From Natronospirillum operosum (GTDB lineage: Bacteria; Pseudomonadota; Gammaproteobacteria; Pseudomonadales; Natronospirillaceae), in the NCBI RefSeq assembly GCF_004768465.1, contig NZ_SRMF01000003.1:62001-126000 (forward strand): a DNA stretch of 64,000 nucleotides, written 5' to 3'. Numbering within the stretch: the first letter of the stretch is position 1; the number at the start of each line of letters is the position of its first letter. The translations under genes and the position numbers were made by a program. The notes below the pieces were generated by a model. That model worked only from the letters and a program-made list of their open reading frames with translations, did no database searches and had not been told where the DNA came from. Positions 3,117-43,480 of this stretch are shown one piece after another.

Positions 3117-5060
<1,944 letters not shown>

Positions 5061-32382: not shown

Positions 32383-33135
32383 TCAGCCCTTGTAACCGAT
32401 ATGCAGGGCGACGATACCACCGGTCAGGTTATGGTATTTGACCCGGTCGAAGCCGGCCTGCAGCATCATGTCGCGCAGGGTGTCCTGATCCGGATGCATG
32501 CGAATGGATTCGGCCAGATAGCGATAGCTGTCGGCGTCATCGGCCACCAGCCGACCCATAAAGGGCAGGGCACGAAAAGAATAGAGATCATAGGCCTTCG
32601 ACAGCAGCTCGGAGCGGGGCTTGGAAAACTCCAGCACCAGCAGCCGGCCGCCCGGTTTCAGCACCCGCTGCATGGAGGCCAGGGCACTGTCCTTGTCGGT
32701 CACATTGCGCAGACCGAAGGCGATGCTGACCACATCAAAATGGTCATCGGGAAAGGGCAGGCACTCGGCGTTGGCCTGCACACAGCGCACCCGGTGGCCC
32801 AGGCCACGGTCCACCATGCGATCCCGGCCCACGCGCAGCATGGAGGCATTGATGTCGGCCAGCACCACCTCGCCCTCGGAGCCGACCTGGCGTGCGAACC
32901 TGGCCGCCAGATCGCCGGTGCCACCGGCGATATCCAGCACCCGGGCGCCACTGCGGACGCCTGCCAGTTCGGTGGTGAAGAACTTCCAGAAGCGATGGAT
33001 GCCGAATGACATCAGATCATTCATGACATCATAACGTGCGGCCACCGAATGGAAGACATCCGCCACCCGACGGGCTTTCTCGCCTTTGGGCACATCCTGA
33101 AAGCCGAAATGAGTGGTGTCGTTGTCGTTCGCCAT
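32383..33135 (-). CDS. ubiE: Ubiquinone/menaquinone C-methyltransferase UbiE
   Basis: UbiE is the SAM-dependent C-methyltransferase of ubiquinone (and menaquinone) synthesis. The 250 residues show the SAM motif [12 protein letters not shown] and the UbiE signatures [17 protein letters not shown] and [17 protein letters not shown]. It heads the ubiE-ubiJ-ubiB-hisE-hinT-tatABC run. A heptamer-repeat element lies in the 261 bp upstream. Confidence 0.98.
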
Positions 33136-33211
33136 GCGCGATCTCTGGGTTGGCCGTCAGTCGCCGCATTGTACCTGCCCGCCACAGCGGGATAAACCAC
33201 TGGTTGTGGGG

Positions 33212-33396
33212 TTTAGTCGACGGTTGACAGTGCACAGTAGACAGTGGGTTTTAGTAGACAGATGACAGTCGACGGATGACAGTAAGGTATTGACAGCACT
33301 TTCGGTTATGGCAACGATCGTACCGTCTACCGTCTACCGTCTACCGTCTACCGTCTACCGTCTACCGTCTACCGTCTACCGTCTACCGTCTACCGT
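33212..33396 (-). repeat. Composite repeat element A with 7-bp tandem array (about 10.9 copies)
   Basis: The left block (about 33212-33297) is built from variants of AGTCGACGG, TTGACAGT, GTAGACAG and GATGACAGT. After about 23 bp, 33321-33396 is a near-perfect array of TACCGTC, about 10.9 units in 76 bp. The array ends exactly at the hslU stop codon (33397-33399). The first 26 bp of the left block are identical to the start of element B at 39173. It has the same orientation as the elements at 39.2 and 43.3 kb. Confidence 0.95.
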
Positions 33397-39171: not shown

Positions 39172-39298
39172 TTTTAGTCGACGGTTGACAGTGCACAGCA
39201 GGGATTAGTCGACAGAAGACAGTAGACGGTCGACAGTGAGGGTTTGACAACCCTTGGAGGTCGTTTAACGAGTCTACCGTCTACCGTCTACCGTCTAC
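39172..39298 (-). repeat. Composite repeat element B with 7-bp tandem array (about 3.9 copies)
   Basis: The left block (39172-39253) begins with the same 26 bp as element A and continues GTCGACAGAAGACAG and GTAGACGGTCGACAGTGAGG, nearly identical to element C. The array GTCTACCGTCTACC and so on (39272-39298, unit TACCGTC) ends 5 bp before the priA stop codon (39304-39306). GTAGACGGT at 39222-39230 is perfectly complementary to ACCGTCTAC in the array, so a long hairpin can form. Confidence 0.93.
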
Positions 39299-39303
39299 TA
39301 AGT

Positions 39304-43239: not shown

Positions 43240-43480
43240 GTTTTAGTCGACAGATGACAGTAGACGGTCGACAGTTGTTTGTAGTCGAAAGTTGACAGTA
43301 GACAGTGGGTTTTAGTCGACGGTCGACATTGGGTTGTAGTCGACAGATGACGGTCGACAGTAGACAGTGGGGTTTAGTCGACAGAAGACAGTAGACGGTC
43401 GACAGTGAGGGTTTGACAGCCTTCTGTGGTTTGGAACGATTCTACCGTCTACCGTCTACCGTCTACCGTCTACCGTCTAC
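43240..43480 (-). repeat. Composite repeat element C with 7-bp tandem array (about 5.7 copies)
   Basis: This is the longest element and fills the whole gap between maeB and ponA. The left block (43240-43420) holds several tandem variants of TTTAGTCGACAGATGACAG, GTAGACGGTCGACAG and TAGTCGAC. The array (43441-43480, unit TACCGTC) runs directly into the ponA stop codon (43481-43483). GTAGACGGT at 43260-43268 and 43391-43399 is complementary to the array unit. Confidence 0.95.

Follow-up and report, generated by a model that had tools for sequence, protein, structure and literature searches.

The heptamer array that adjoins hslU is part of a family of elements that lies beside stop codons, elsewhere sometimes supplies them, and is strictly polar within this genus as well as in three other phyla. 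With a probability that we put at roughly 0.55, the elements are non-coding extragenic palindromes built from heptamers, which were copied between intergenic sites, changed in arm length by slippage and survived beside stop codons.

The hslU array and its element family

The TACCGTC array was found by TRF to have 100% matches over all its copies, and the TGA of hslU (TCA on the forward strand) occupies the next three bases (Table 1). The HslU protein matches the HslU model through its final residue (443/443), which identifies this TGA as the native stop of the gene. Thus, the near-perfect 76-bp array and its boundary at the hslU stop codon, both described in an earlier note on this DNA, were confirmed for this locus, and the array is internal to its contig. 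Searching the window, i.e. the whole stretch of 64,000 nucleotides that was analysed, with a 21-mer of the unit (up to 3 mismatches) yielded 13 matches, compared to a mean of 0.00 in 100 shuffles. The second arm is opposite in orientation to the array, so that the whole element is a palindrome-like composite.

Table 1 Features of the hslU region and the three elements of the window (positions in the window)
Feature	Position	Strand	Remark
Composite heptamer palindrome (whole element), hslU/ubiE spacer	33212–33396		hslU site likewise occupied in the sister species
Degenerate arm, AGTCGAC / AGTAGAC / AGATGAC type heptamers	33215–33283	+	38-bp higher-order repeat
Core separating the arms, AAGGTATTGACAGC...GGCAACGATCG	33284–33320	+	
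Homogeneous TACCGTC array, 10.9 copies	33321–33396	+	GGTAGAC on the hslU sense strand
hslU, 443 aa	33397–34728	−	stop codon 33397–33399 adjoins the array
ubiE, downstream of hslU	32383–33135	−	start 79 nt from the degenerate arm
Second element, priA/argS spacer	39172–39302		site empty in the sister species
Third element, between convergent malic-enzyme gene and mrcA	43241–43480		

The composite occurs at three places in the window, as noted before. Each copy has its homogeneous array facing the stop codon of a leftward gene (hslU, priA and mrcA) within about 5 nt, while the third element ends at most 6 nt from the stop codons of both the malic-enzyme gene and mrcA. A 38-bp higher-order repeat, composed of heptamers and a GGGTTTT-like spacer, was observed in degenerate arms at 33206–33283 and 43314–43412. 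Comparison of the whole window with Rfam at gathering thresholds gave no match except one tRNA gene, which is located on the minus strand at 2426–2509.

In the 4.34-Mb genome, 59 matches of varied strength to the hslU copy were obtained (E up to 10). Most of the match sites were fetched, and the scored set comprises 34 elements of this genome and 21 of the sister species (congener G001). The 55 scored rows were reduced to 50 by removing entries that agree in their first 60 bases; some separate loci were merged in this step as well. The elements have the architecture [AGTNGAC]n, a core of about 37 bp and [GTCNACY]n, with GGTAGAC, AGATGAC, AGAAGAC and AGTTGAC as variants of the unit AGTNGAC. Two-armed elements of this genome are about 60–240 bp long and carry GTAG within the arms. 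The outer borders often read TTAGTCGAC...GTCGACTAA, which gives many copies terminal inverted repeats. Among the 50 de-duplicated elements of the genus, 36 are two-armed and 14 one-armed; in 36/36 of the two-armed elements the GTAGAC arm comes first and the GTCTAC arm second, with none reversed. Among near relatives (57 genomes searched, own genome included), the element was found only in this genome and in congener G001. A search of plasmids with the third element gave no match.

Of the 13 array-bearing sites of this genome that could be read (one of which, L188, adjoins an N gap), 8 have the array arm turned towards a stop codon, as judged by eye. Therefore, the same orientation relative to a leftward gene end, which the earlier note had described, applies to all three copies of the window and does not extend to the genome as a whole. 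Six contig ends lie inside elements (G000, contigs C4, C8, C9, C28, C30 and C31) and N gaps adjoin elements at two sites, so that copy numbers may be wrong and neighbouring sequence is unreliable there. Further heptamer types (AGTTGTG, AGTCGAA, AGTTGAA and ACTCACA) were seen adjoining or inside elements at L185 (about 3900–3980), L201 and L231. REP-like GCGCCTACA repeats were observed inside a heptamer element or replacing one in the sister species (L230 and L244 of G001).

Position at gene ends and predicted folds

Stop-facing edges of the elements lie at most 12 nt from the stop codon in 17 of 34 cases in this genome (median 14 nt) and in 14 of 18 cases in the sister species (median 3). The corresponding values for start-facing edges are 1/26 (median 69) and 0/10 (median 94.5). 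Placement in the two species is hence not random with respect to gene ends, stop-facing edges being closer than start-facing ones, and the preference for 3′ ends suggested earlier is supported as an association. The base-exact junction seen at hslU is not kept, as the distance at the same gene is 2 nt in the sister species. Between tandem genes, the element is nearer to the stop side in 15/21 pairs of this genome (p = 0.08, not significant alone) and in 8/9 pairs of the sister species (p = 0.04); pooling of both species results in 23/30, with orthologous sites counted twice. Divergent gene pairs make up 2 of 28 compared to 32 of 159 in the background, a shortage that is not significant (p = 0.12).

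Both strands of the elements fold into long predicted stems. For 23 elements folded on both strands, all 46 folds were below the mean energy of 40 dinucleotide shuffles, with z-scores ranging from −1.4 to −11.5; the fold of the hslU sense strand reaches −91.4 kcal/mol (z −9.9). The median energy per base of 35 elements is −0.409, slightly beyond the window background of −0.375 (sd 0.054). A preference for the sense strand was not observed: it gives the more stable fold in 14 of 23 tandem cases, so that selection of the sense-strand RNA is not supported. Intrinsic terminators were rejected as an identity of the elements, because the large stems of the three window copies are not followed by a U-tract. 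The only terminator hits in or beside the window elements are small (43407–43424 on the plus strand, in a core, and 43513–43492 on the minus strand, at the mrcA end).

A 3′-end RNA function of the elements is plausible. It may even have come first, in which case a REP-like stem would be selected as an exonuclease block or termination aid and copying would be secondary. Placement after stop codons and the 46 folds more stable than the shuffle means are in line with this order of events, as is the maeB/mrcA spacer, where the sister species has a short, by eye hairpin-like sequence in the position of the element. For REPs of E. coli, the available part of the source describes a stabilisation of 3′ ends with no part in mediating termination (PMC13289151). 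However, there is no preference for the sense strand, the energy per base is modest, and arms and cores are very variable between species. We regard an RNA function that preceded copying as a tentative alternative, which overlaps with the reading of copied, slipping palindromes that we prefer.

Signs of copying, and turnover relative to the sister species

A total of 34 sites were compared with the sister species by eye, leaving out L186, which had no match, and a small number of weak remnants. The sister site is filled in 24 cases (diverged remnants counted), lacks the element in five, lacks it and is rearranged in three, and is undecidable in two. The clearest difference was found between priA and argS, where in the sister species the priA stop codon follows directly on the conserved argS leader and this genome has about 131 bp in addition; of the five lacking sites, this is the only clean one-step difference. 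At L189 and L208:13682 the absence of the element is accompanied by some changed bases, at maeB/mrcA a short unrelated spacer stands in its place, and L197 lies at a contig end of this genome. In this two-species comparison without outgroup, the lacking sites could also be losses in the sister species. A target-site duplication was not recognisable by eye at the sites where the sister species has no element.

Identical 43-nt cores occur at unlinked sites of this genome, one shared by window position 43411, L189 and L191 and another by L184, L192 and L195, which points to recent copying within this genome. The core at window position 39242 is one base off, and the sister counterparts of L184, L192 and L195 have different cores. 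The cores of L199/L225 and L202/L222 are mutual best matches, as predicted by vertical descent. Filled sister sites often have a different array unit or core: GGTAGAC corresponds to AGAAGAC at L190/L216 and to AGTAGAC at L187/L217, while the units agree at hslU and L199/L225. The array at hslU has 10.9 units here compared to eight full ones in the sister species; the GTCATCT units at L199/L225 number 10 and 6, respectively. These differences support the 7-bp, slippage-driven change of copy number expected in the earlier note, in the sense of a slippage-like pattern.

Neutral local growth by slippage in unconstrained spacers would be a rival account, in which adjacency to stop codons and polarity merely mark where growth was tolerated. 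It would accommodate the homogeneous arrays as well as the turnover of copy number and unit between the sister species, and in the literature heptamer repeats are reported to be over-represented in bacteria, with slippage as a proposed cause (PMC4692102). The one-step difference at priA/argS, the other sites without an element in the sister species, the identical cores at unlinked sites and the one-sided polarity (128 to 0 matches in genomes outside the genus, see below) indicate, however, that more than local slippage is needed. We therefore consider purely local growth unlikely. As judged from the compared sequences, copying or conversion inside each genome in combination with 7-bp slippage would explain the turnover of cores and units, which local slippage alone would not.

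According to the preferred reading, elements would be copied to further intergenic sites within the genome, possible routes being transposition in trans as well as gene conversion among the copies. One arm would then gain or lose 7-bp steps by slippage, as the homogeneous arrays and the differences in unit and length between the species suggest. The elements would survive where they do least harm or bring some benefit, i.e. beside stop codons, with the GTAGAC strand read after the coding sequence. There, the transcript beyond the stop codon could fold into a long predicted stem, and GTAGAC, AGATGAC and AGTTGAC units carry stop codons in all three frames. By analogy, the benefit judged most likely is a putative protection of mRNA 3′ ends by REP-like stems.

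Arrays in other phyla and relation to known repeats

A scan of species genomes for 3.7 GTAGAC units yielded at least 115 stretches, of which 80 were inspected by title and all 115 were used in the placement counts. The 80 titles include Chloroflexi, Gemmatimonadetes, Bacteroidetes groups, Acidobacteria, Nitrospirae, Planctomycetia, Myxococcaceae, Elusimicrobia and others. The element is thus not restricted to the genus, a possibility that was rejected on the basis of these arrays. In a sample of the class, GTAGAC arrays were found in 1 of 369 genomes, the own genome. The backward control of this sample gave matches in G203, G385 and G432 (13, 1 and 4, respectively) and 8 in the own genome; it is not clean because the reversed pattern spells CAGATGR repeats, i.e. 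arrays of the AGATGAC type. Unit variants or related arrays may hence occur elsewhere in the class, for example in these three genomes. A contig of Edwardsiella hoshinae begins with a 13-unit GTCTACC array (L102:2–91). Five contigs of a viral collection carry GTAGAC arrays (L285–L289), with an inverted pair of the usual polarity in L286.

All 19 inverted pairs found among the at least 115 listed loci have GTAGAC first and GTCTAC second. In 24 whole genomes chosen for holding arrays, 128 matches of this polarity (overlapping starts counted) and no reversed match were obtained. According to the record titles, the 128 matches are located in 10 of the 24 genomes, namely eight of Chloroflexi, one of Gemmatimonadetes and one of Blastocatellia. 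Based on longest-ORF calls and with no background counted, 19 distinct composites outside the genus lie between nine tandem, seven convergent and three divergent ORF pairs. For single arrays among the matches listed, the nearer gene is on the 5′ side of the GTAGAC strand in 64 of 71 cases, a count that leaves out 49 arrays (26 inside ORFs and 23 without flank) and one tie.

Among the matches listed, the stop codon of GTAGAC-sense arrays at gene 3′ ends falls within the array in 33 of 76 cases (32 TAG), 0–12 nt before it in 27 (9 TGA, 9 TAG and 9 TAA) and farther than 12 nt away in 16. GTCTAC-sense arrays at gene 3′ ends, likewise among the matches listed, have the stop codon within 12 nt in 1 of 42 cases and inside the array in none. 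These counts leave out 39 arrays inside ORFs (38 GTCTAC-sense and 1 GTAGAC-sense) and 11 behind another array. The contrast between 76 and 42 arrays is partly built in, since GTAGAC repeats have a stop (TAG) in three of three frames and the complementary GTCTAC repeats in none; the 18 TGA and TAA stops outside the arrays are not array letters. As several of the loci outside the genus come from the same genomes, the array counts are not independent. Genes ending in an array include mutS, a thiolase gene and a ketol-acid reductoisomerase gene (e.g. L069:3690–6407). The array supplies TAG and often the last residues, resulting in tails such as VDGRR, VDSRQ or SRQ. Pfam domains are present in 9 of 10 tested proteins with the stop in the array, and in four of them reach to within 7 residues of the end.

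The supply of stop codons could in itself set the polarity. An inward GTAGAC strand gives TAG in all frames within about 21 nt, so that only this polarity would be harmless beside a gene end. The 33 stops inside arrays, the repeat-encoded tails of domain-bearing proteins and the difference of three to no frames between the two strands are what such a constraint would produce. However, stop-free AGAAGAC arrays of the sister species keep the polarity (the adjoining gene is mostly lost to contig ends there), hslU uses its native TGA, and an equal strand rule is reported for the stop-free GGGAATC heptamers of Xanthomonas in the part of the source available (PMC4692102). We regard stop supply as a doubtful explanation of the polarity, which may act together with others. 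It is equally improbable in our view that all arrays form one multi-phylum class of GTAGAC palindromes, spread by a dedicated heptamer-recognising activity that targets or tolerates gene 3′ ends, with the palindromes supplying stop codons and mRNA 3′ stems.

That the elements are REPs of the GTAG super-family, with a RAYT (Y1 transposase) as their mover, is very improbable and largely refuted: GTAG is present in the commonest units, and one Y1 transposase gene was found here and at least one in 10 of 11 other element-bearing genomes searched, but different repeats, and no tandem heptamers, surround the own Y1 gene, none of 20 Y1 flanks examined (9 genomes; 20 of 28 genes found) holds even two tandem units, and GTAG is not an unpaired tag in these elements. 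No mobilising gene for the elements was found among the Y1 transposases. The own RAYT-like gene (L237:1456–1887) is flanked by REP-like repeats of its own (CGTAGGAGCTCGCCC...).

Tandem heptamers in intergenic DNA also make up the STRR repeats of cyanobacteria, which resemble the elements described here in this respect and differ from them in the unit. MITEs are short non-coding elements with terminal inverted repeats, whose sites are empty in relatives. The elements share the terminal inverted repeats and have five sister sites without an element; unlike MITEs, they have repeat arms of variable length and no target-site duplication recognised by eye. Like REPs, they are extragenic palindromes with a possible role at mRNA 3′ ends, but compared to REPs as characterised in the accessible part of the source they are longer, built from heptamers, and lack both an unpaired GTAG/CGTC tag and a flanked RAYT among the loci found (PMC3733652). 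The GTAG-REP form described there, a palindrome of 20–40 bp with an unpaired GTAG at one end, is not that of the present elements.

TAACTGA direct repeats were described from Beggiatoaceae, cyanobacteria and Bacteroidetes (MacGregor 2015; PMC4679880). They likewise form intergenic heptamer arrays with a patchy distribution over distant phyla, with a unit that differs from that of the TACCGTC array. In the Guaymas genome, according to the text available of this study, they are mostly located just upstream of start codons, with only one indirect repeat (PMC4679880).

The closest counterparts are the GGGAATC and GGGGA(C/T)T heptamers of Xanthomonas and Nostoc (Rehm et al. 2015; PMC4692102). As far as the available part of that source describes them, these repeats lie on the coding strand up to 50 bp after stop codons, form convergent inverted pairs (70 in Xcc and 75 in Xac), are few between divergent genes, and recur at the same genes in related species, where their length and sequence have changed; a function is not established according to their own authors. 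The present elements agree with this account in consisting of intergenic 7-nt units in tandem, either homogeneous or variable at some positions, in being located near stop codons on the coding strand, and in forming convergent inverted pairs. Their unit is GTAGAC-like, and TACCGTC/GACGGTA is without a G-run of three; a G-rich, quadruplex-forming unit, which is absent here, is a trait of the Xanthomonas/Nostoc sub-kind only. Further differences from the published description are the composite structure with a core, the occurrence in several phyla, an array that in some cases provides the stop codon, places where a sister species has no element, and cores that recur unchanged at unlinked sites. 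For the literal repeat, a full-text search of open papers gave no relevant published account, the matching papers dealing with other topics as judged by their titles or the opening of their abstracts.

Taken together, the elements are of the same kind as the GGGAATC repeats of Xanthomonas and Nostoc, with the unit, the wider spread and the signs of copying as the new features. Three new handles result: a GTAGAC unit in distant phyla with strict polarity, a pair of sister species in which some sites are filled and others lack the element, and genes that take their last codons and stop from the repeat. These handles make copying, slippage and 3′-end function separately testable, and the old puzzle of 7-letter repeats becomes easier to test.
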